From Anaerolineae bacterium (GTDB lineage: Bacteria; Chloroflexota; Anaerolineae; JAAYZQ01), in contig JAFGOG010000125.1 of assembly GCA_016926595.1 (NCBI GenBank), forward strand, positions 1 through 9,700: 9,700 nt of DNA, written 5' to 3'. The position numbers were made by a program, and so were the translations under genes. Under the pieces are notes generated by a model. The model ran no database searches. It had not been told where the DNA came from and worked only from the letters and a program-made list of their open reading frames with translations. Positions within the stretch are counted from its first letter, which is position 1, and each line of letters starts with the position of its first letter. Shown piece by piece: positions 1 through 9,700 of the stretch.

Positions 1-1
1 G

Positions 2-106
2 CTGGGCGGCTCGCGGGCGTACGTGCAGTTGGGCCGGCGGGATGTGGGCCAATCAAATCCTGGCCCAGAGATGCCGGGAGGGGGAGGGGATGGCGATGCC
101 GGTTAG
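2..106 (+). CDS. C-terminal end of an upstream gene, probably another GAF sensor (5' end outside window)
   Basis: The frame beginning at base 2 stays open for 34 codons and ends at TAG 104-106. Its first residues, LGGSRAYVQLGRRD, align by eye with the last residues of the three complete sensors here (LDLDEVEVRMGRA, LGLEALDLQVGIVE, LGLHDLAIRLEVGSE), following the pattern L-[GD]-x3-hydrophobic-x-hydrophobic-[RQ]-hydrophobic. It then runs into a Gly-rich tail ending DGDAG, similar to the DGDGE end of the sensor at 4488-6755. It overlaps the next gene by 17 bases, the same overlap length as at 6739-6755. The product is inferred from a short alignment only. It could be an unrelated gene end or a chance open frame. 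Confidence 0.45.
   Translation: MGGSRAYVQLGRRDVGQSNPGPEMPGGGGDGDAG
76..89 (+). promoter_or_regulatory. Shine-Dalgarno region of the PotD-like gene, two possible registers
   Basis: The run GGGAGGGGGAGGGG contains GGAGG at 77-81 and again at 83-87. The first lies 8 bases before ATG 90 and the second 8 bases before ATG 96, so the site supports both starts equally. I chose 90 because it is the upstream one. The difference is two residues ahead of the signal peptide and does not affect the mature lipoprotein. Confidence 0.55.
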
Positions 107-1211
107 CAGGTTGGGGTGGCAAAGGGCCGTTGCCGTTGCGGTGGTGGTTTGCGGGCTGTTGGCGCTGGCTGGCTGCGGCGCGACGCCGGCGCCGGCGCCA
201 TCGCCCACGCCGGCGCTCCCTTCGGTCGCAGACCAGGCGTTGAATATCTACAACTGGGATACGTACATCGACCCGGCGGCGCTGACCGATTTCGAGCAGG
301 AGTTTGGGGTCAAGATCCGCTACGACCTGTACGAGAGCAACGAGGCGATGCTGGCTACGGTAGAGGACGGCGCCACCGATTACGACATCGTGGTGCCGGG
401 CGATTACATGGTCGAGATCATGCGCGCCGCCGATCTGCTGGCTCCCCTGGACAAGGCCAATATCCCCAATTTCGGCAACCTGGACGCGGCGTTCGTCAGC
501 CCGGCCTATGACCCCGGCAACCGCTACTGCGTGCCCTATCAGTGGGGGACGATGGGCATCGGCTATAACGTCAAGGCGACCGGGCGGGAGCTGAGCGGTT
601 GGCAGGATCTGTTCGATCCAGCGTTCGCCGGGCGGGTGTCGCTGCTGGCCGATCCGCGCCTGACGATGGGCGTGGTGTTGTTGTACCTGGGCTACAGTCC
701 CAATACCACCAGCGCCTTTGAGATCGCCCAGGCGCGCGATTTCTTGATCGAGCGCGCCGCTCAGATCGCCGAGTACGCGCCCGATACCGGCCAGGATCTG
801 CTGGCCGACGGGACGGTGGACATCGCCTTTGAGTGGAGCGGCGACATTTTCCAGGCGATGGAGGGCAACCCCGATCTGCGCTACGTGATCCCCCAGGAAG
901 GGTCTATCATCTGGACCGATAACTTGTGCATCCTGGCTACTGCTCCGCACAAGGAGATGGCCGAGAAGTTTATCAACTATGTGCTAGAGCCGAAAGTGGG
1001 AGCGGCGATTTCGAATTATATCCGCTTCGGCTCGCCTAACCGGGCGGCGCTGCCGTTGTTGAATCCAGAGGATCGCAACGATCCGGCGATCTATCCGCCG
1101 GATCAGGTGCGACAGCGGTTATTTTTCCTGACCGACGTTGGACCGGCGGCGACGGAGCTGTACGAGGCGGCGTGGGCCGAGGTGTTGGCGGCACAAGAAA
1201 AGGGCGACTGA
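90..1211 (+). CDS. PotD-like extracytoplasmic solute-binding lipoprotein (polyamine family)
   Basis: The 373-residue product has a signal peptide (residues 11-28) ending in lipobox LAGC with Cys29 as the predicted lipidation site, then a Pro/Ala-rich tether (31-45). The mature part is a full-length periplasmic-binding-protein-II fold of the spermidine/putrescine type, with landmarks at NIYNWDTYIDP (52-62), DYDIVVPGDYMV (97-108), PYQWGTMGIGYN (149-160), W249, IWTDNL (274-279) and a C-terminal DVGPAATELYEAAW. Aligned from memory to E. coli PotD, the Trp34, Asp168, Trp229, Trp255 and Asp257 equivalents are kept (W56, D188, W249, W275, D277). The Glu171 and Gln327 positions look like Leu (L191, L347) and Tyr293 looks like F313, so the ligand may differ from spermidine. 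No permease or ATPase follows; a membrane sensor begins one base after the stop. It may be a ligand-presenting protein, as NspS is for MbaA, or it may serve a transporter encoded elsewhere. Confidence 0.92.
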   Translation: MAMPVSRLGWQRAVAVAVVVCGLLALAGCGATPAPAPSPTPALPSVADQALNIYNWDTYIDPAALTDFEQEFGVKIRYDLYESNEAMLATVEDGATDYDIVVPGDYMVEIMRAADLLAPLDKANIPNFGNLDAAFVSPAYDPGNRYCVPYQWGTMGIGYNVKATGRELSGWQDLFDPAFAGRVSLLADPRLTMGVVLLYLGYSPNTTSAFEIAQARDFLIERAAQIAEYAPDTGQDLLADGTVDIAFEWSGDIFQAMEGNPDLRYVIPQEGSIIWTDNLCILATAPHKEMAEKFINYVLEPKVGAAISNYIRFGSPNRAALPLLNPEDRNDPAIYPPDQVRQRLFFLTDVGPAATELYEAAWAEVLAAQEKGD

Positions 1212-1212
1212 T

Positions 1213-3480
1213 ATGGCTACCGGAACAGCACCGGCACTAGGCACCGGAACAGCACCATCGCAGGGCAGGAAGACTCGCCGGCCGAGGTCGATCCAGACCC
1301 AGTTGTTGCTGGGGACTGGCGTCATCCTGGCGCTGGCGGTGGTGATCGCGCTCACGGGCTATTTTAGCCTGCGCCAACTGCAGGCCGGCGTCCAGACGAC
1401 GCTGCAAGAAGCGAGCCAGATCCGGGACGCGAGCCTGGGCATCGAGAACAGTTTCTTGCTTGCCCGCCAGGATGAGGCGAGCTTTGTGGCCAACTGGCCG
1501 TCGATGGGCTACGAGGCCGCATATGACCAGTATGCGCTGTCCAACGCCGTCCGGCTGAGGCAGGCGCAGACGGAGCTGGATAGGATGAGCAGCCTGGTGG
1601 CGACGGCCCGCGACCAGGAGCTCAGATCGCTGACGGCTGAGGCCGAGGAGCTGGCGCCGCTGCTGGATAGCTATGAAGCGGCGTTCCTGGCGACGGTGGC
1701 CAAGGTGGAGCAGCGTACGCGGGGCGGGGGCCTGGACGCGGCGATGCGAGGTGAGCTGGACGGGTTGGAGGCGATGGTTGAGCCGCTGGCGAGACCCGAG
1801 TTCCGCGCACTGTTGTTGGAGATCCGTGCTGCCGAGCGGGGCTATGCGGCCACCGGACGCCAGGAGTACGTGGACGAGGTGCGGCTGCTGGTCGATCGCT
1901 TTGTCGGGTTGGTGGAGGGGAGCGACGCGGCTGATCTCGAGACCGATGCTGGCGCCAGTGTGGCGGCGGCGGATCTGACCGGGTCGATCGAGGCCTACTT
2001 GGCCCAGTTTACCCGATTGGTAAACGTGGACCGTGACATCAAGGTCAACACCGGGATCTTTCGCGAAGTGACGGCCGATATCGGCGACATGACGGCGGCG
2101 ATCCGGCAAAAGAGCGAAGCCGGCCTGGCGCGAGCCCAGGATCAGCTGCGGCGGATCGGCCAGCAGAGCACGATCGCACTGGCGGCGACGGCGGTGCTGG
2201 CGCTGGGGTTGGGGGTGTTGGCGGCGGTGATGGTGGCCCGCCGCATCGCCGGGCCGTTGGGCGAGCTGAGCCAGGCGGCGCAGCGGATGGGCAGCGGCGA
2301 TCTGACCCAGCCGATCAAGGCCGGCGGGGCAGCCGAAGTGGTGACGTTGGCCCAGGCGTTTGGCGCCATGGCCGATCGGCTGCGGGAGCTGATCGGCAGC
2401 CTGGAGGACCGGGTGACCGAGCGAACGCGCAGCCTGGAGGCCGCGGCCGAGGTGTCGCGGGCGACGACGCTGCTGCGCGATCCTGACGAGCTGCTGCGCC
2501 AGGTGGTGGATCTGGTGCAGGAACGGTTCAACCTGTATTACGTTGGGCTGTTCCTGGTCGAGCCACTATCCCCAGCCGCGAGTCCCCAGCCGGGGATCTC
2601 CGTCGGCCCTGCACGTGGCGGGGATCTCCGTGAAGCAGGCGGCACAGGCGAGGCGAGGCAGTGGGCGGCGTTGCGGGCCGGGACGGGCGAGGCGGGCGCG
2701 ACGATGATCGCCCAGGGGCACCGGCTATCTGTCGCTGGCGAGTCGATGATCGGCCGGTGCGTAGCCGAGGACCGGGCCCGGATCGCTTTGGATGTGGGCC
2801 AGGAGCCGGTCCGCTTTGACAACCCGCTGCTGCCCCAGACGCGCTCGGAGATGGCGCTGCCGCTGCACTCGCGGGGGCAGGTGATCGGGGCCATGACGGT
2901 GCAGAGCACGGTCGAGGCGGCGTTCGACGAAGCGGATATTGCCGTGATGCAGACGATGGCCGACCAGGTGGCGGTCGCCATCGACAACGCCCGGCTGTTT
3001 GTGGAGACGCAGGCGGCGCTGAAGGAGATGGAGGCGGTCCACCGCCAGTATCTGCGCGAGGCGTGGACGGGGTACGCGCCGACTGCCGGCGCGACCTACT
3101 ATGAGACGGCGCCGTCCCGGCAAAAGCAGCCAGGACTTTCACCGGGAGACGGGGGCGGACAGACGTTGGCAGCGCCGATCACGCTGCGCGGCGAGGAGAT
3201 CGGGACGGTGGGGATCGAGGTTGACACGGAGGCGCGACAGTGGACCGCGGAGGAGGCAGCCCTGGTGCGGGCGGTCACGGACCGGCTGGCGCTGGCGGCG
3301 GAGAACCTGCGGCTGCTGGACGAGACGCAGCGCCGCGCCGCCGAGGAACGGTTGGTGGGCGAGGTGACGGCGCAGATGCGGCAGACGCTGGACCTGGACG
3401 CCATTTTGCAGGCTGCCGCTCGCGAGATGCGCGGTGTTTTGGATCTCGACGAGGTAGAGGTGCGGATGGGCCGCGCATAG
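1213..3480 (+). CDS. Membrane sensor: helical bimodular-like input, HAMP, GAF modules, no kinase domain
   Basis: The product is 755 residues from ATG 1213, preceded by AAAAGGG at 1198-1204. The open frame extends upstream to 1138, but that part overlaps the previous gene and is Arg-rich. Residues 1-26 are a low-complexity cytoplasmic leader made by a DNA repeat. TM1 is about 31-53 and TM2 about 320-343. Between them lie about 265 mostly helical residues with two similar motifs, LLARQDEASF (82-91) and LEIRAAERGY (202-211), suggesting a helical bimodular or paired four-helix-bundle sensor. HAMP follows (344-396), then a short coiled coil and a GAF domain (about 425-600) with DNPLLPQTRSEMALPL (536-551) and MADQVAVAIDNARLF. 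Next come a degenerate GAF (about 605-702) and a coiled coil leading to a GAF stub (705-755). A 64-base repeat encodes residues 452-473, in the loop after FLVE. There is no HisKA, HATPase, GGDEF or chemoreceptor domain, so it probably relays through a partner. The PotD-like protein just upstream is a plausible partner; its true ligand is unknown. Confidence 0.85.
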   Translation: MATGTAPALGTGTAPSQGRKTRRPRSIQTQLLLGTGVILALAVVIALTGYFSLRQLQAGVQTTLQEASQIRDASLGIENSFLLARQDEASFVANWPSMGYEAAYDQYALSNAVRLRQAQTELDRMSSLVATARDQELRSLTAEAEELAPLLDSYEAAFLATVAKVEQRTRGGGLDAAMRGELDGLEAMVEPLARPEFRALLLEIRAAERGYAATGRQEYVDEVRLLVDRFVGLVEGSDAADLETDAGASVAAADLTGSIEAYLAQFTRLVNVDRDIKVNTGIFREVTADIGDMTAAIRQKSEAGLARAQDQLRRIGQQSTIALAATAVLALGLGVLAAVMVARRIAGPLGELSQAAQRMGSGDLTQPIKAGGAAEVVTLAQAFGAMADRLRELIGSLEDRVTERTRSLEAAAEVSRATTLLRDPDELLRQVVDLVQERFNLYYVGLFLVEPLSPAASPQPGISVGPARGGDLREAGGTGEARQWAALRAGTGEAGATMIAQGHRLSVAGESMIGRCVAEDRARIALDVGQEPVRFDNPLLPQTRSEMALPLHSRGQVIGAMTVQSTVEAAFDEADIAVMQTMADQVAVAIDNARLFVETQAALKEMEAVHRQYLREAWTGYAPTAGATYYETAPSRQKQPGLSPGDGGGQTLAAPITLRGEEIGTVGIEVDTEARQWTAEEAALVRAVTDRLALAAENLRLLDETQRRAAEERLVGEVTAQMRQTLDLDAILQAAAREMRGVLDLDEVEVRMGRA
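1219..1266 (+). repeat. Two 24-base tandem units at the 5' end of the first complete sensor gene
   Basis: Units 1219-1242 and 1243-1266 share 19 of 24 bases, both starting ACCGGAACAGCACC, and encode TGTAPALG and TGTAPSQG. The same unit recurs at 8022-8045 in another sensor gene, followed there too by a partial second unit at the same 24-base period, but in a different reading frame. Here it supplies most of a leader ahead of the first membrane helix. The cross-gene match is visible directly; that it is a dispersed element is inference. Confidence 0.75.
2568..2631 (+). repeat. 64-base dispersed repeat, copy 1, inside a GAF loop
   Basis: This stretch matches 6622-6685 at 56 of 64 bases without a gap. 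Internally it has TCCCCAGCCG twice (2569-2578, 2583-2592) and GGGGATCTCCGT twice (2592-2603, 2620-2631). A small perfect hairpin, TCCCC-AGCC-GGGGA, sits at 2583-2596. It is read as L452 to R473 of the host sensor, in a loop between two GAF strands that is short in the paralogues. The other copy is translated in a different frame, so the similarity is held at DNA level. Confidence 0.8.
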
Positions 3481-3489
3481 TACCAGATT

Positions 3490-3496
3490 GGGAGGG
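3490..3496 (+). promoter_or_regulatory. Shine-Dalgarno site of the OpuAC-like gene
   Basis: GGGAGGG, with core GGAGG at 3491-3495, lies 7 bases before ATG 3503. It favours that start over TTG 3488, which has no site, and over ATG 3518, which would give a typical MKKLLL signal start but is preceded only by a close, weak AAGG. Confidence 0.7.
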
Positions 3497-3502
3497 CGAG
3501 AG

Positions 3503-4465
3503 ATGACCCATGCAAGGATGAAAAAGCTGCTGCTGGCGGCCGTGGCGATGGCGCTGGTGACTGTGACGGCCTGCGGGTCGGAGCCGGGAACGGCGGTTCC
3601 AACCAGGCCGGTGATCAAGCTGGCGATTAGCCCCTGGGTGGCCAGCGAGGTCAATGCCACTGTGGCCAAGATCCTGCTCGAGGAGCAGATGGGCTATACT
3701 GTCGAGATCGTGCCGATCGACGAGTATGCCCAATGGGAGGCGATGGCCAAGGGGGAGGTGCACGCCGGCCTGGAGGTCTGGCCCTCAGGCCACGCCGAGG
3801 ACGTGCAAAAGTATATTGTCGAGGCCAAGACGGTGGAGGACGGCGGGCCGTTGGGGCCGGTGGGCAAGATCACCTGGTATATCCCCTCTTATTTGCGGCG
3901 CGAGCATCCCGAATTGGCGACGTGGGAGGGTCTGAAGGACCCGGACAATGTGGCTCTGTTTGCGACGGCGGCGACGGGGACCAAGGGTCAGTTCCTGGCC
4001 GGCGATCCGAGCTGGGTGCAGTATGACGAGCAGATTATCAATAACCTGGGACTGAATTTCCAGGTGGTGCGGCTGGACTCGGAAGAGAAGCTGCTGGCGG
4101 CCCTGGACGCGGCTTATCAGAAGCAGGAACCGATCCTGCTCTATTTCTGGACGCCCCATTGGGCTCACTCGCTGTACGACCTGGTGCCGGTTGAGCTGCC
4201 GGCTTATAGTGAGGAATGCTATGCCAGGGCGGCGGAGGGCGGGGTGGACTGCGACTATCCGCCAGACCCGTTGTTCAAGATTTTCTGGTCGGGTTTCAAG
4301 GACTATGCTCCGCAGGCCTATGCCTTTCTGAAGAGGATGAGCTATACAAACCTGGATCAGATCGCGATTCTGGCCACGGTGCAGTTGGACAAAAAGAGCG
4401 TGGAGGAAGCGGCCCGCGCCTGGATCGCCGAAAACGAGGAGGTATGGAAGGGGTGGATACCGTAG
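3503..4465 (+). CDS. OpuAC/ProX-like solute-binding lipoprotein (glycine betaine family)
   Basis: The 320-residue product begins with a basic n-region and hydrophobic core, then VTAC with Cys24 as the likely lipidation site. This lipobox is weaker than in the PotD-like protein because Val, not Leu, is at -3. The mature part matches the quaternary-amine ABC binding proteins: AISPWVASEVNATVAKILLE (41-60), a typical N-lobe start; LEVWPSGHAED (90-100); ITWYIPSYL (123-131); and YFWTPHWAHSLYDL (214-227), the most diagnostic motif. W93, W125, W216 and W220 are candidates for the aromatic cage that holds a trimethylammonium group in this family, though I cannot assign them without a structure-based alignment. 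Cys240 and Cys250 could form a disulfide. No transporter partner is encoded here. It lies 22 bases after one sensor and 22 bases before another whose input is dCache. Ligand presentation to a sensor, as CosB does for CosT, is a reasonable inference; serving a distant transporter is the alternative. Confidence 0.92.
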   Translation: MTHARMKKLLLAAVAMALVTVTACGSEPGTAVPTRPVIKLAISPWVASEVNATVAKILLEEQMGYTVEIVPIDEYAQWEAMAKGEVHAGLEVWPSGHAEDVQKYIVEAKTVEDGGPLGPVGKITWYIPSYLRREHPELATWEGLKDPDNVALFATAATGTKGQFLAGDPSWVQYDEQIINNLGLNFQVVRLDSEEKLLAALDAAYQKQEPILLYFWTPHWAHSLYDLVPVELPAYSEECYARAAEGGVDCDYPPDPLFKIFWSGFKDYAPQAYAFLKRMSYTNLDQIAILATVQLDKKSVEEAARAWIAENEEVWKGWIP

Positions 4466-4487
4466 CGCGCCAAGGGCAGGTGGCAGG

Positions 4488-6755
4488 ATGCGAACCAGTC
4501 TCCGCACTCGACTGACGGCGATCTTTATCGGGCTGGCGGTGGTGCCGCTGTTGTTGGCGGGCCTGGCGCTGGCCTGGCAGAGCCTCCAGGTGCAGCAGCG
4601 GCAGGCGCTGGCGCTGCAGGGCGAGGTGGCCAGGCGGGTTTCGACGGCGGTGGACGCCTTTGTCCGCGGCCTGGAGGGCGATCTGCTGAGTATGGTGCAG
4701 GTGCAGGGGCTGGCCGAGCTGGACGCCGGGCAGCAGAAGCAGGCGCTTGCGCAGCTCCTTGACTACCAGGGCGCCTTTGCCGAGCTGACGCTGCTGGACG
4801 GCGACGGGCGCGAGCAGGTTCGCCTGGCCCGCCTCAGGACTTTTGCCGACGCCGACCTGGGCAGCCGTTCCACGGCCGACGAGTTTACCATGCCCAGGGC
4901 GACTGGCGAGACCTATTACAGCGCGGTGCGGTTTGACCAGGTGTTGGGCGAGCCGCTGATGACGGTGGCTGTGCCCCTGGCGACGTCCACCGGCGGCCAG
5001 GGGGGGGTGCTGGTGGCCGACGCGCGGCTGAAGAAGGTGTGGGATGTGATCGCCGCTACGCCGGTGGGCGAAGGCGAGAGTGTGTATATTGTGACCGAGG
5101 ATGGCCGGGTGATCGCCCACCGCAATCCATCGGTGGTGCTGAGGGGCGCGCGTTTCGCGCCGGCCGAGGATGGGATCCAGGCAGGGCTGGACGCGCCGCG
5201 GGTGGTGCTGGCCAGCGATGCGCTTCAATTCGGTGCGCAGTCGTTCAGGGTGGTGGCCGAGAAGGCGACGTCGCAGGCGCTCAACCTGGCGCTCAATGCG
5301 CTGGTTATTACGGGTGTTCTGACGCTGATCGCGCTGGCCGGGGCGATTGTGCTGGGGTTTACGGCGGTGCGCCGCATTCTGCGGCCTATTGACAGGCTGA
5401 CGGCCACCGCCCAGGCTATTACCAGCGGCGATCTGTCGCAGGAGGCCAGGGTGGTGGGCTCGGACGAGATCGCTTACCTGGGCAATGCCTTTAACAGGAT
5501 GACCGGGCAATTGCGGCAGACGCTGGCAGGTCTGGAGCAGCGGGTGGCCGAGCGAACGAGCGACCTGGAGCGGCGCTCGGCCTATCTGCGCGCCGCCGCC
5601 GAGGTAGGGGCTGTGGCCACGTCGATCCTGGACGCAGAGGAGCTGATCGACCGGGTGGTTGAGCTGATCCGCGAGCGGTTTGGGCTGTACTACGTGGGGT
5701 TGTTCCTGGTGGGTGAGGAAGGCGGGGCAGGAGGTGAGTGGGCGGTGCTGCGGGCCGGCACGGGAGCGGCCGGGCAGGCGATGATAGCCCGCGGGCATCG
5801 GATTCGGGTGGGCGACGCGCCTTCGGGCATGATCGGTTGGAGCATCGCTCACGGCCAGGCGCGGGTGGCTTTGGAAGCGGAGGCTGACGCGGTGCGGCTG
5901 GCCACGCCCGAATTGCCCGAGACACGCTCTGAGGCGGCGCTGCCGCTGCGCTCGCGGGGCCGGGTGCTGGGCGCGCTGACGGTGCAGGACACAAAGCCGA
6001 GCGCTTTTGACGAGGCGGCGCTCTCTGCGCTGCAGGCGATGGCCGACCAGGTAGCGGTGGCGCTCGATAATGCCCGCCTGTTTTCGGAGAGCCAGGTGGC
6101 CCTGGAGGTGGAGCGGCGGGCCTATGGCGAGTTTAGTCACAGGGCCTGGCTGGAGCTGACTCGCAGCCAGGCGGGGCTGGGTTATGTGTGCGATAGGGAG
6201 GGTTTCAAGGCGCCGGGACGGTGGCAGCCGGCGATGGTGGAGGCCAGCCGGACAGGCCGGCCTATTAGCGACGGTGGATCGACGCTGGCCGTACCGGTCA
6301 AGATCGGCGACCATGTAGAGGGAGCTGTGAGGCTGTGCAAACCTCAGGGGGCCAGGCCGTGGACGCCAGATGAGGTCAGGCTGATGGAGACGCTGGCCGG
6401 GCAGCTCGGCGCGGCTTTGGAGAGCGCCCGGCTGTACCGGGATACGCAGCGCCGGGCAGCCGAGGAGCGGCTGGTGGGCGAGGCGACGGCGCGGATGCGG
6501 CAGACGCTGGACGTGGACGCGGTGCTGGACACGGCGGTGGAGGAGATGGTCAGGGTGTTGGGGCTGGAAGCGCTCGATCTGCAGGTGGGGATTGTCGAGG
6601 GCAAGCGCCGGAGCGGCGACCATCCCCAGCCGCGGGTCCCCAGCCGGGGATCTCCGCCGGCCCCGCATGTGACGGAAATCCCCGTCGAGGGCAAGCGCCG
6701 GAAGAAGGGCGCCGCAAGACGGCAAGGGAAGAGGCAAGATGGCGACGGTGAATAG
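4488..6755 (+). CDS. Membrane sensor: dCache input, HAMP, GAF modules, no kinase domain
   Basis: The product is 755 residues from ATG 4488, with GGCAGG at 4475-4480 seven bases upstream. TM1 is about 11-30 and TM2 about 271-292. Between them lies a dCache-type domain with ETYYSAVRFD (141-150), MTVAVPL (158-164), GGVLVADARL (172-181) and VYIVTEDGRVIAH (199-211). HAMP (292-345) and a coiled coil (345-372) precede a GAF domain (about 378-535) with ELPETRSEAALPL and MADQVAVALDNARLF. A degenerate GAF with WLELTRSQAGLGYVCD (554-569) follows, then a coiled coil and GAF stub (655-700). Residues 701-755 form a basic tail absent from the paralogues. It is built from a 64-base repeat inside a 90-base segment bounded by direct repeats, and probably lengthened an older, shorter C-terminus. 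There is no catalytic output domain. A run of eight G at 5000-5007 lies in the dCache region. The last 17 bases overlap the next gene. The adjacent betaine-family binding protein is a plausible partner. Confidence 0.87.
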   Translation: MRTSLRTRLTAIFIGLAVVPLLLAGLALAWQSLQVQQRQALALQGEVARRVSTAVDAFVRGLEGDLLSMVQVQGLAELDAGQQKQALAQLLDYQGAFAELTLLDGDGREQVRLARLRTFADADLGSRSTADEFTMPRATGETYYSAVRFDQVLGEPLMTVAVPLATSTGGQGGVLVADARLKKVWDVIAATPVGEGESVYIVTEDGRVIAHRNPSVVLRGARFAPAEDGIQAGLDAPRVVLASDALQFGAQSFRVVAEKATSQALNLALNALVITGVLTLIALAGAIVLGFTAVRRILRPIDRLTATAQAITSGDLSQEARVVGSDEIAYLGNAFNRMTGQLRQTLAGLEQRVAERTSDLERRSAYLRAAAEVGAVATSILDAEELIDRVVELIRERFGLYYVGLFLVGEEGGAGGEWAVLRAGTGAAGQAMIARGHRIRVGDAPSGMIGWSIAHGQARVALEAEADAVRLATPELPETRSEAALPLRSRGRVLGALTVQDTKPSAFDEAALSALQAMADQVAVALDNARLFSESQVALEVERRAYGEFSHRAWLELTRSQAGLGYVCDREGFKAPGRWQPAMVEASRTGRPISDGGSTLAVPVKIGDHVEGAVRLCKPQGARPWTPDEVRLMETLAGQLGAALESARLYRDTQRRAAEERLVGEATARMRQTLDVDAVLDTAVEEMVRVLGLEALDLQVGIVEGKRRSGDHPQPRVPSRGSPPAPHVTEIPVEGKRRKKGAARRQGKRQDGDGE
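6594..6702 (+). repeat. Perfect 19-base direct repeats bracketing copy 2 of the 64-base element
   Basis: GTCGAGGGCAAGCGCCGGA occurs at 6594-6612 and again at 6684-6702, exactly 90 bases apart, so both are read in the same frame as VEGKRR. They enclose the second copy of the 64-base repeat. This could be a long target duplication from insertion, or a unit boundary of a larger repeat family, or a slippage duplication. The flanks of copy 1 do not carry this 19-mer, which fits a site-specific duplication better than a conserved part of the element. Confidence 0.75.
6622..6685 (+). repeat. 64-base dispersed repeat, copy 2, in the C-terminal tail of the dCache sensor
   Basis: It aligns without gaps to 2568-2631 with 8 differences. 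The TCCCCAGCCG pair and the TCCCC-AGCC-GGGGA hairpin are intact, while the second GGGGATCT unit has decayed. It is translated as H712 to V733, one reading frame away from copy 1, giving a Pro/Arg-rich peptide unrelated to that of copy 1. Confidence 0.8.
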
Positions 6756-8418
6756 CAGGGCTATGTCGGGCATAGAGGAGGTGCGGGCCTGGCAGCGGCG
6801 GCTGCTGCAGGGTGTGCTGCGGGCGCTGGCTATCATCACGCTTGTTGCTGTAGTGACCGGCACGGTCGACTCGGTCGGCCGCGGGCAGTACTGGACGGTG
6901 CCTTTCTACTGGGTGTCGTACGCGGTGATCATTCTGTTTGCTTTATGGCGGCGGGCCCCCTATCAACTGGGCGCCTGGTCGGTGATTGTGCTGCTTTACG
7001 TGCAGGGTTTCATCGACGTGGTCCAGGACGGGCTGTCGGGCAGCGCCCGTGTCTTTATGCTGACGCTCGTCTTTGCGGCTGCGATCTTTTTGGGACGGCG
7101 GGCGAGCATCTTTGCCCTTGCTCTCGCCGTTCTGACGCTGGCCGGCTTTGGGGTGTCGTACACCACCGGCTGGCTGACCGTCCCCGGCGTGACCGGGGTC
7201 AGCGACCCGACGGCATGGATCGTCGCCACTGCTACCTTTCTTATGCTGGGTGTGTTGGTGGCAGTGTCCCTCAACTTTATGGTCCCCAGGCTGGCCACGG
7301 CGTTGGGCCAGAGCCGCCAACTGGCCCAGGAGCTGGAGGCGGAGCGGGTCCAACTGGAGTCGCAGGTGAAGGAGCGGACGGCCGACCTGGCCCGGCGGAC
7401 GGTGCAGTTGGAGACGGCGGCCGAGGTGGCCCGCGACGCCGGGGCGATCCGGGACGTGGAGCGGTTGTTGGCCGAGACGGCGCGCCTGATCTCGGCCCGT
7501 TTTGGGTTTTATCACACCGGCATTTTTCTGCTGGACGAGAAGAAAGAGTATGCGGTGCTGCGGGCCGCGTCGTCGGCGGGCGGGCAGCGGATGATGGCCC
7601 GCGGGCACAAGCTGGAGGCCGGGGACGCGCCGGTGGGGATCGTCGGCGAGGTGGCGGCCCGGGGCGGGGCGCACATTGCCCTGGACACGGGGGCCGACGC
7701 GGTGTTCTTTGACAATCCCGATCTGCCCGAGACGCGCTCAGAGCTGGCGCTGCCGCTGCAAGCGCGGGGGGAGAGGATCGGGGTGCTGGACGTGCAGAGC
7801 ACAGAGCCAGACGCGTTTGGCCCGGAGGATGTGGCGGTGCTGCAGACGCTGGCCGACCAGGTGGCGGTGGCGATCAGCAACGCGCGGTTGTACCAACAAG
7901 CGCAGGCGAGCCTAGAGGCCGAGCGGCGGGCGTACGGGGAGCTGAGCGCAAAGGGGTGGCAGGAGCTGGCGCGCCTGGGGGGCACGCTGCGGCGGCGTTA
8001 TGACCCGCACGGGGTGCTTACACCGGAACAGCACCGGCACCTTGCACCGGAAGGGGGCGCGGGGCAGGGCGGCATGGCGATACCGATCAGGGTCCGCGGC
8101 CAGGTGATCGGGACGCTGGACGCTTACAAGCCGGCCGGAGGCGGGCCGGCAGGCGCATCGGGCGCAGGGGAGTGGACGGAGGAGGAGAAGGCGCTGCTGG
8201 GGACGCTGGCGGATCAGTTGGGGGCGGCGCTGGACAGCGCGCGGCTGTACCAGGAGACGGAGCGGCGGGCGGCGCAGGAGCGGCTGGTGGGCGAGGTGAC
8301 GGCGCGGATGCGGCAGTCGCTGGACGTGGACGCGGTGCTGCGGACGGCGGCGCAGGAGATCGGCGAGTCGCTGGGCCTGCATGATCTGGCCATCCGCCTG
8401 GAGGTGGGATCGGAATGA
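6739..8418 (+). CDS. Six-helix membrane sensor with GAF modules, no kinase domain
   Basis: The product is 559 residues from ATG 6739, with AAGGGA at 6724-6729 nine bases upstream. ATG 6763 is an alternative start with little upstream support. Six hydrophobic segments (about 25-46, 54-72, 77-93, 105-119, 123-141, 158-183) form a MASE-like input region that I cannot assign to a family, with only short loops outside the membrane. A coiled coil (about 190-228) leads to a GAF domain (about 235-385) with FGFYHTGIFLLDE (255-267), FFDNPDLPETRSELALPL (323-340) and LADQVAVAISNARLY. The degenerate GAF (about 395-505) includes a linker containing the 24-base repeat (T428-E437). The coiled coil and GAF stub close the protein (508-556). 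No catalytic output domain is present. It overlaps the previous gene by 17 bases and the next by 4. Its GAF is closest to that of the next gene, with a 48-base identical stretch, pointing to duplication or gene conversion. The signal could be membrane-borne or a GAF-bound cytosolic ligand. Confidence 0.87.
   Translation: MATVNSRAMSGIEEVRAWQRRLLQGVLRALAIITLVAVVTGTVDSVGRGQYWTVPFYWVSYAVIILFALWRRAPYQLGAWSVIVLLYVQGFIDVVQDGLSGSARVFMLTLVFAAAIFLGRRASIFALALAVLTLAGFGVSYTTGWLTVPGVTGVSDPTAWIVATATFLMLGVLVAVSLNFMVPRLATALGQSRQLAQELEAERVQLESQVKERTADLARRTVQLETAAEVARDAGAIRDVERLLAETARLISARFGFYHTGIFLLDEKKEYAVLRAASSAGGQRMMARGHKLEAGDAPVGIVGEVAARGGAHIALDTGADAVFFDNPDLPETRSELALPLQARGERIGVLDVQSTEPDAFGPEDVAVLQTLADQVAVAISNARLYQQAQASLEAERRAYGELSAKGWQELARLGGTLRRRYDPHGVLTPEQHRHLAPEGGAGQGGMAIPIRVRGQVIGTLDAYKPAGGGPAGASGAGEWTEEEKALLGTLADQLGAALDSARLYQETERRAAQERLVGEVTARMRQSLDVDAVLRTAAQEIGESLGLHDLAIRLEVGSE
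8022..8052 (+). repeat. 24-base repeat unit plus partial second unit in the linker of the six-helix sensor
   Basis: Unit 8022-8045 begins ACCGGAACAGCACCGGCAC, identical for 19 bases to 1219-1237, and ACCGGAA restarts at 8046 with the same 24-base period. Over 31 bases it matches 1219-1249 at 28 positions. Here it is translated as T-PEQHRHLAPE, a frame different from the TGTAPALG reading of the other locus, in a Gly-rich linker that varies among paralogues. Confidence 0.75.
8400..8404 (+). promoter_or_regulatory. Shine-Dalgarno site of the last sensor gene
   Basis: GGAGG lies inside the end of the previous gene, 10 bases before ATG 8415 and 13 before ATG 8418. The spacing favours 8415, whose ATG overlaps the TGA stop at 8416-8418 in an ATGA arrangement typical of translational coupling. 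Confidence 0.6.
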
Positions 8419-9700
8419 TGAACTGGATCAGACAATTCCTTGCTCCGCCGGTGTTTGACAGGGACGAGGATAGGACTCGCACCGCCGCTCTGCTCAATAT
8501 CATTTTGCTGAGTATCCTGGCTGTCGCGGGTCCGATGGCCATCATCGCGCCTTTGGCGCTTCCCCAGCCGCTGCTTGGGGTGATAGTTGCTGTGCCTATG
8601 TCGCTGGTGTGTGTGGGCGCGCTGCTCCTGATGCGCCGCGGCTATGTTCAGCTCGCAAGCGTGATACCTGTGTCGCTGCAATGGATTGCCTATGCAGCGC
8701 TGGCCCTCATCTCTGGCGGGATAACCAGTATTCTCTGCGTTGGTCTTGTCACGGATGTGGTGATGGCCGGTCTGCTGTTGGGCAGGCGTGCGGCTTTGGC
8801 CATCGCCGGTTTGAGCATGGTGTTCGGCTTGGGGTTGTTTTACATGGCGAACGCCGGCCTTCTTCCAGCTCAATACTTTGTCGCCGATGCGGGTACGGCG
8901 TGGCTGGTGGTGGCGGCGAACCTGTTTGAGACGGCGGTGATCCTGTACCTTGCCTCCAGCAGCCTCGACCAGGCGCTGAGGCGCGCTCGCGGCCTGACGG
9001 CCGAGCTGGAGGGGGAGAGGGGACGCCTGGAGGCGACGGTGGAGGAGCGGACGCGTGACCTGGCGCGCCATGCCCGGTACCTGGAAGCAGCCACGGCCAT
9101 CGCCCACGACGCTGTTTCGGTGTTGGATGTGCAGGCGCTGCTGTCGCGGGTGGTGACGCTGGTCAGCGAGCGGTTTGGTTTCTATCACACCGGGATCTTT
9201 TTCGTGGATCCCACAGGCGAATGGGCTGTATTGCAGACGGCGTCCAGCGAAGGAGGGCAGCGGATGGCGGCCGGGGGGCACCGGCTCAAGGTCGGCCAAA
9301 CCGGGATCGTGGGCGAGACTGCTGCCCGAGGCCAGCCGCACATCGCCCTGGACGTGGGAGCCGACGCGGTATTCTTTGACAATCCGGACCTGCCCAACAC
9401 GCGCTCGGAGGCGGCTCTGCCGCTGCAGGCGCGGGGGGAGATCATCGGCGTGCTGGATGTCCAGAGCACGGAGCCGGCAGCGTTCAGCCAGGAGGATGTG
9501 GCGGTGCTGCAGACGCTGGCCGACCAGGTGGCGGTGGCCATCGACAACGCGCGGCTTTTCCGCCAGGCGGAGGAAAGCCTGGAAGCAGAGCGGCGGGCCT
9601 ATGGCGAGCTGGGCCGCCAGGCCTGGACGGAGATGGTGCGCGCTCGCCCTGGCCTGGGCTATCGCTATTACGAGCGCAAGGTGGAACCGATTGGGCGCGA
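8415..9700 (+). CDS. Second six-helix membrane sensor with GAF module (3' end outside window)
   Basis: The frame from ATG 8415 stays open for 428 codons to the window edge. Six hydrophobic segments (about 25-48, 52-73, 78-99, 103-121, 124-144, 160-181) form an input region with the topology of the previous sensor but little sequence similarity to it. A coiled coil (about 183-222, with VEERTRDLARHARYLEAA) leads to a GAF domain (about 237-385), very close to that of the preceding gene: FGFYHTGIFFVD (254-265), DAVFFDNPDLPNTRSEAALPL (317-337) and LADQVAVAIDNARLF. The degenerate GAF has begun with WTEMVRARPGLGYRYYE (404-420). The first 480 or so bases look less GC-rich than the surroundings by eye, which may reflect a separately acquired input domain. 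Whether it ends in the same GAF stub or carries the array's missing output domain cannot be seen here. Confidence 0.88.
   Translation, partial: MMNWIRQFLAPPVFDRDEDRTRTAALLNIILLSILAVAGPMAIIAPLALPQPLLGVIVAVPMSLVCVGALLLMRRGYVQLASVIPVSLQWIAYAALALISGGITSILCVGLVTDVVMAGLLLGRRAALAIAGLSMVFGLGLFYMANAGLLPAQYFVADAGTAWLVVAANLFETAVILYLASSSLDQALRRARGLTAELEGERGRLEATVEERTRDLARHARYLEAATAIAHDAVSVLDVQALLSRVVTLVSERFGFYHTGIFFVDPTGEWAVLQTASSEGGQRMAAGGHRLKVGQTGIVGETAARGQPHIALDVGADAVFFDNPDLPNTRSEAALPLQARGEIIGVLDVQSTEPAAFSQEDVAVLQTLADQVAVAIDNARLFRQAEESLEAERRAYGELGRQAWTEMVRARPGLGYRYYERKVEPIGR

Follow-up and report, generated by a model that had tools for sequence, protein, structure and literature searches.

A predicted piece of a multi-receptor signalling array with solute-binding proteins in Anaerolineae-type Chloroflexota

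What could be the role of a run of membrane receptors that carry no enzyme, interleaved with solute-binding proteins that have no transporter beside them? The question is raised by a stretch of 9,700 nucleotides from an Anaerolineae bacterium (GCA_016926595.1, contig JAFGOG010000125.1, positions 1-9,700 of the forward strand), here called the window, which is filled by six genes on the plus strand with intergenic gaps of +1, +22, +22, -17 and -4 bases. Gene calls and Pfam confirm what a sequence-only reading of the window had described, i.e. three complete sensors, a partial one and two solute-binding proteins (SBPs) of different families in a tight operon. Judging from sequence comparison, the window forms part of a multi-receptor signalling array, of a kind found in Anaerolineae-type Chloroflexota. 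The same comparison establishes the arrays, the cassette shared by their receptors, the absence of an output domain, the kinase in relatives and the pairing of SBPs with receptors. That the SBP-assisted receptors feed one shared kinase, in a chemotaxis-like logic made from other parts, is in our judgement rather probable.

The receptors differ in their input regions (helical McpS-like, dCache, MASE11 and others) and have in common a non-catalytic cassette, GAF1-GAF2-tail. Receptor 1 (gene 2, 1213..3480, +), described by Pfam, transmembrane (TM) prediction and a structural model, reads TM-helical domain-TM-HAMP-GAF1-GAF2-tail, with TM segments near residues 26 and 318; receptor 2 (gene 4, 4488..6755, +; Pfam) reads dCache-HAMP-GAF1-GAF2-tail, and neither has a kinase. 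Receptor 3 (gene 5, 6739..8418, +) places a MASE11 membrane domain (E 3e-18) before GAF1-GAF2-tail (GAF E 2e-23), and receptor 4 (gene 6, 8415..9700, +), cut by the window end, has a MASE11-like membrane domain, matched weakly at E 0.1 and below the cut-off, followed by GAF1 (GAF_2 E 1e-19). The cassettes, all on the plus strand, were located by alignment and hidden Markov model (HMM) at 2365..3474 in receptor 1 and 5517..6593 in receptor 2, by alignment at 7339..8406 in receptor 3, and by an HMM match of 342 bits at 9012..9698 in receptor 4, where the cassette is incomplete. Across an alignment of 24 cassettes, GAF1 and the tail are conserved and GAF2 is variable. The model of the receptor 3 cassette (mean predicted local distance difference test score, pLDDT, 87.7) combines a full GAF with a helix of 53 residues, a GAF-like sheet of half size, a further helix of 45 residues and a helix in the tail, and its top Foldseek matches are GAF-fold proteins. 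The earlier description of one conserved, non-enzymatic cassette common to the sensors is upheld, with the correction that the second GAF is short.

No match to the HisKA, HATPase_c, GGDEF, EAL, SpoIIE, MCPsignal, permease or ATPase-cassette families was obtained for the six window genes (Pfam, E <= 1), in agreement with the initial view that the complete genes hold no permease, ATPase or catalytic output domain. A cryptic kinase within the receptors, which had been named as a point to be checked by profile search, is rejected, as Pfam detected none in the window receptors or in 20 further array receptors, and, among the matches listed, the NCBIfam kinase models that hit the window receptors cover HAMP or GAF parts (for gene 4, the best 25 of 40 matches). 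When receptors were chosen by the whole cassette, 238 of 244 stop no more than 60 residues past the cassette tail; a match to the GAF2-tail model in 244/244 follows by construction from that choice.

Genes of like make-up recur side by side in relatives, and therefore the arrangement of the window is more than chance. A scan of genome contigs with gene 5 returned 31 loci, 31/31 titled as Chloroflexota or as taxa that belong there, most of which hold arrays of the same type (L030 and L031 do not). The cassette was found in 32 of 199 genomes of G004's class at E <= 1e-100, ten candidates being scored per genome so that cassette match counts are lower bounds, and in 12/12 of the genomes first searched, which had themselves been found through the cassette. 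Larger pieces were fetched from genomes reached via the gene 5 loci and the class sample, and annotated with our own HMMs and a gene caller, our own script, based on codon usage; the array gene calls rest on these, and HAMP counts depend on one such HMM. The sequences are not independent, since L021 is identical to a part of G066 (and is dropped where stated) and the pairs G125/G192, L006/L008, L003/L016 and G009/L015 are 83-87% identical across long stretches.

The arrays are same-strand runs of cassette receptors, the largest with 18 cassette genes in one sequence (G008a). As anticipated, the survey of gene order brought out a recurring layout. On the large contigs of G037 and G182, two lone receivers and a multi-GAF protein are followed by several receptors, accompanied or not by SBP genes, then by ParA, a kinase of the form GAFn-HisKA-HATPase-REC-REC (REC, receiver domain), a fusion of a pyridoxal phosphate (PLP)-dependent enzyme with REC, and a gene resembling a transporter (in G037, EamA by Pfam); next, on the opposite strand, come a regulator, of OmpR type in G037, and two kinases. 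Every whole-cassette match in these two genomes sits within one stretch. The arrays of the nearer relatives G008, G001 and G188 open with two receivers and a HAMP-GAF-histidine kinase gene, and a multi-GAF hybrid kinase closes the second array of G008 and the array of G147. Two adjoining genes of G008, G008b_16941 (45%, 564 columns) and G008b_18661 (50%, 431 columns), are the best matches of the window's genes 5 and 6, respectively.

In 24 of the 44 sequences from relatives, the array includes a soluble histidine kinase with several GAF domains and, in most cases, two receivers (complete in 23, cut after the kinase core in L012); HisKA with an H-box, HATPase_c and REC are found in this type of kinase. 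A kinase near the array, one of the genes that the sequence-only reading proposed to look for, is thus found in relatives. No such kinase was found in the other 20 of the 44 sequences, in most of them because the sequence ends inside the array, and none is visible in the 9,700 nucleotides of the window itself. In 18 of the 24 terminal kinases, the GAF immediately preceding HisKA scores 151-200 bits with the model of receptor GAF1; the opposite-strand kinases reach 62 bits at most. Weighing against a kinase matched to the receptors in this manner, 6/24 terminal kinases have no receptor-type GAF adjoining HisKA: those of G003, G009 and L015 carry it at a more upstream position, and the GAF next to HisKA in G008b, G133 and G190 matches the receptor model weakly, at 15-27 bits. 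Some arrays also have a second kinase. ParA is encoded in 25/45 sequences (the window included in the 45). In 18 of them it directly precedes a complete kinase, in L012 it precedes the cut kinase, and in L025 and L028 a GAF gene truncated where the sequence stops; in G003, G009, L002 and L015 it lies ahead of the receptors.

The two SBPs of the window each adjoin a sensor, gene 1 preceding gene 2 and gene 3 preceding gene 4. Gene 1 (90..1211, +), a PotD-like lipoprotein (SBP_bac_8 E 1e-31), starts at the ATG at 90 or 96 and was searched as 99-1211 or 99-1208; among its best relatives of solved structure in the PDB are PotD of E. coli and further proteins that bind spermidine/putrescine (the best five at E 2e-67 to 4e-62), and the NCBIfam PotD/PotF models match it at scores below their cut-offs. 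Gene 3 (3503..4465, +) is an OpuAC/ProX-like lipoprotein (OpuAC E 7e-49; PDB 4xz6, E 2e-40), and a script found a lipobox-like motif in both. Arrays contain 21 SBP genes, of which one lies at a sequence end and the other 20/20 precede a HAMP receptor, HAMP being present in 120/251 array receptors (48%); two of the 20 pairs are separated by a further gene, which Pfam marks in one case as a putative cyclase. Weak SBP assignments are kept in these counts, namely L001:4415-6172 (SBP_bac_8, E 2e-4) and the SBPs of G001_C263 and G133 (PF04392, E 4e-5 and 0.006), all below cut-off, with G008b_29986 above it (E 2e-10), and one counted SBP, in L024, is incomplete because the locus begins within it. The putative cyclase, with a lipoprotein-like start, stands between an NMT1-type SBP and a receptor in two related genomes (L055:1801-2580, PF04199; L069:193-978 (-), the latter likened to the former by its similar start).

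The SBPs also go with particular receptors. An input-region match in another genome exists for 21 of 23 SBP-linked receptors, and in 18/21 the receptor matched best goes with an SBP of the same family, compared with a mean of 1.2 and a maximum of 8 in 10,000 shuffles among 119 HAMP receptors. When best matches of at least 50% identity are left out, the count is 12/14, against a shuffle mean of 0.7 and a maximum of 9. The misses are G001_C303, G066 (no other receptor in the set is linked to its SBP family) and L024_332, and no foreign input-region match was found for L001_6176 and G147_C140_6929 in this test. The set includes G174, L090 and a third G147 pair, added as SBP-linked loci, G174 and L090 having been found through their SBPs, and the pairing is in part a reflection of the shared descent of neighbouring genes. 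For the window, the sole match of the receptor 1 input in this set is a G174 receptor that follows a PotD homologue (29%, E 2e-27), and the best match of receptor 2 is a G147 receptor after an ABC_sub_bind-OpuAC double SBP (53%). Furthermore, 6/14 gene 2 relatives lie on contigs of the same base count as a contig with a gene 1 relative (the latter among the best 120 of 1216 matches), which suggests that the gene 1-gene 2 pair is kept in those relatives too. The SBPs, which had been called orphans, are therefore better described as partners of particular receptors. One gene joins SBP, TM segment and cassette in a single, fused version. Two further genes, L004:4545-7358 and L036:5354-7981, carry Peripla_BP_3 on a cassette and were set aside as proof of SBP docking; they have no TM segment and are therefore probably cytoplasmic sensors. 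At L090:247-2280, a single open frame holds ABC_sub_bind and OpuAC in tandem directly before a receptor with a gene 4-like input.

Searches in the reverse direction, with the window's own input domains, are free of the bias of loci found through SBPs, except that L090 was known before the receptor 2 search; an SBP gene stands next door in 11/11 opened places. The input of receptor 1 contains an extracellular helical domain of McpS-like fold (1414..2124, +), in a full-length model with a mean pLDDT of 67 but block means of 82-96 across residues 61-300; a four-helix bundle, indicated by a weak Pfam match to 4HB_MCP_1, was dropped in favour of this modelled fold. Run alone against 48 genomes of G147's order, this input matches two places (G188, G270), both directly after a PotD homologue (474 and 438 bits), so that PotD directly precedes a receptor 1-type input in G174, G188 and G270. 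The receptor 2 input, with its dCache_1 domain at 4590..5123, + (residues 35-212, Pfam E 2e-18), matches 16 places in 10 genomes, nine of which were opened; an ABC_sub_bind-type SBP (called by our own HMM in all nine and by Pfam in the four scanned) lies directly upstream in eight and downstream in one, and is fused to OpuAC in G147. What follows the receptor 2-type dCache-HAMP input varies: the cassette or the cut start of one in G258, G147, G188 and G256, a HisKA kinase in G242 and G008 C2, an MCP signalling domain (MCP, methyl-accepting chemotaxis protein) in G008 C109 and C40, and GAF-GAF-HisKA-HATPase-REC-REC-REC in G239. As one and the same input carries cassette, kinase or MCP domain, the cassette occupies the place of an output module. 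The MCPs of G008 (L120:2556-5765 (-) and L121:3606-6503 (-)), with a receptor 2-type dCache and an adjoining ABC_sub_bind SBP, suggest that SBP-assisted chemoreceptors exist in Chloroflexota.

We propose the following mechanism. A ligand-loaded, lipid-anchored SBP would dock on the extracellular domain of its own receptor, as TorT does on TorS, polyamine and quaternary amine being the probable ligands of the two SBPs of the window. The signal would run via HAMP and a coiled coil into the GAF cassette. The receptors resemble kinases in which GAF2 and the tail replace HisKA-HATPase, and we therefore infer that the cassette couples sideways to the shared kinase by GAF/coiled-coil contacts and sets its activity. 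Phosphate would then reach the REC domains as well as the lone receivers with which the array begins, and ParA, where encoded, may place the receptor cluster. As the sequence-only reading proposed, the receptors may form a physical multi-receptor complex. With enzyme-less receptors and a shared hybrid kinase, the receptors would take the role of MCPs and the hybrid kinase that of CheA, with unrelated signalling domains.

The same components could be wired otherwise. The receptors might form mixed dimers with kinases, in the manner of RetS-GacS, each modulating several, so that the array would be a set of separate modifiers instead of one cluster. They are indeed kinase-like through GAF1, after which the GAF2 tail stands in place of HisKA, GAF1-type domains are found outside arrays too, and a HAMP-GAF-histidine kinase gene also opens some arrays; the confinement of whole-length cassettes to the array in G037 and G182, and the recurrence of one kinase type at arrays, nevertheless make this account unlikely. 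Action through a non-kinase partner, ParA or another protein, with the kinase as a mere neighbour, would fit cassettes without a known catalytic domain and the ParA that precedes the kinase or stands at the array start in the 25 sequences, and is in our view improbable, given that no ParA was seen in two kinase-bearing sequences (G008b, G133) and that kinases and MCPs elsewhere carry the same SBP-dCache input.

Alternatively, the SBPs could serve distant ATP-binding cassette (ABC) transporters and stand in the array by chance or for co-expression. Both are of transporter families, and G144, where the cassette finds no match at E <= 1e-60, has a 56%-identical PotD homologue beside a multi-TM protein and an ABC ATPase, a setting that also fits recruitment of an SBP from a transporter. 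Against this, no permease or ATPase gene lies beside the SBPs in the window, and one ABC-ATPase seed found no match in the 45 array sequences at E <= 10, the same seed matching in 3/24 other loci; ABC genes beside the SBPs with unconserved GAF genes, the finding that would have spoken against the sequence-only reading, were thus not seen in the arrays. Together with the 20/20 position, the 18/21 pairing, the 11/11 reciprocal result and the SBP-TM-cassette gene, this leaves SBPs that merely hitchhike very unlikely. The shared-kinase scheme remains our preferred explanation.

TorT-TorS is a periplasmic binding protein with a hybrid histidine kinase, and RetS-GacS consists of kinase heterodimers. 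TorT-TorS structures are present among the matches listed, and the SBP gene beside the sensor is a point of likeness; TorS is a hybrid kinase, whereas the window receptors have no kinase or receiver domain (HisKA/HATPase_c none, E <= 1) and several SBP families serve different receptors of a single array. As in RetS-GacS, receptors that lack an output of their own could work by associating with a kinase, but those described here have no HisKA or HATPase and are grouped, with as many as 18 cassette genes to an array (G008a). NspS-MbaA is a polyamine SBP with a cyclic di-GMP enzyme, its polyamine-binding-protein gene directly upstream of a membrane sensor as in the window (PMC8079147); the window receptors, by contrast, have no GGDEF or EAL domain (E <= 1), end in a GAF cassette and belong to an array.

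A further parallel is with MCP-CheA arrays, which in Vibrio are placed by ParC/ParP (PMC5706961). The likeness lies in many enzyme-less receptors, a kinase that they would share, lone receivers, in many cases an ATPase resembling ParA, and some SBP inputs. The differences are that the four receptors of the window have no MCP signalling domain (PF00015; Pfam, E <= 1) and that array receptors stand in one operon and end in GAF domains. Many-to-one wiring fits the gene layout of relatives (kinase with the array in 24/44), the functional link being our interpretation and some arrays having a second kinase. No MCPsignal or CheW (PF01584) match was found in 18/20 array genomes, so that in those genomes the system does not serve ordinary chemotaxis as an accessory; both matches are present in G001 and G008, which are near the window. 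To our knowledge, the integration of many receptors by one kinase is known mainly from MCP/CheA arrays, and no description of kinase-less GAF receptor arrays was found among the open-access literature listings searched. Single SBP-sensor pairs and many-to-one logic are already known; their combination here varies these known designs and possibly represents an independent invention of receptor arrays. Tentatively, and with less confidence than in the shared kinase itself, one may envisage a sensory super-array evolved independently of MCP/CheA, in which some 20 enzyme-less receptors at most, with interchangeable inputs (some via captured transporter SBPs), assemble by their GAF/coiled-coil cassettes about a single soluble hybrid kinase, with placement by a dedicated ParA in many lineages, as a chemoreceptor-array-like integrator for bacteria without chemotaxis genes. 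A second, GAF-based many-to-one solution, if true, would show which array features are general. The split, fused and domain-swapped SBP-receptor pairs would allow testing of how captured transporter proteins turn into co-receptors, and a role would be suggested for many Chloroflexota proteins labelled only 'GAF domain-containing protein'.

Some arrays and their surroundings hold further genes. At L016:8000-12700, receptor genes seem split across several overlapping frames, through broken genes or an assembly problem. The G003 array (L049) has DUF3782-PDDEXK_10, FAD-binding-domain and Methyltransf_19 genes among its receptors (6482-7267, 9184-10329 and 19188-19979), and G009 has genes similar to these, the FAD-binding-domain gene having been scanned as its L009 copy. 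PALP genes follow the array kinase in 17/45 sequences, often beside an EamA-like transporter gene, and the PLP-dependent enzyme (PALP) is fused to a receiver domain at L018:17503-19179, with a Cys-rich start, and at L052:10001-11470 (-).

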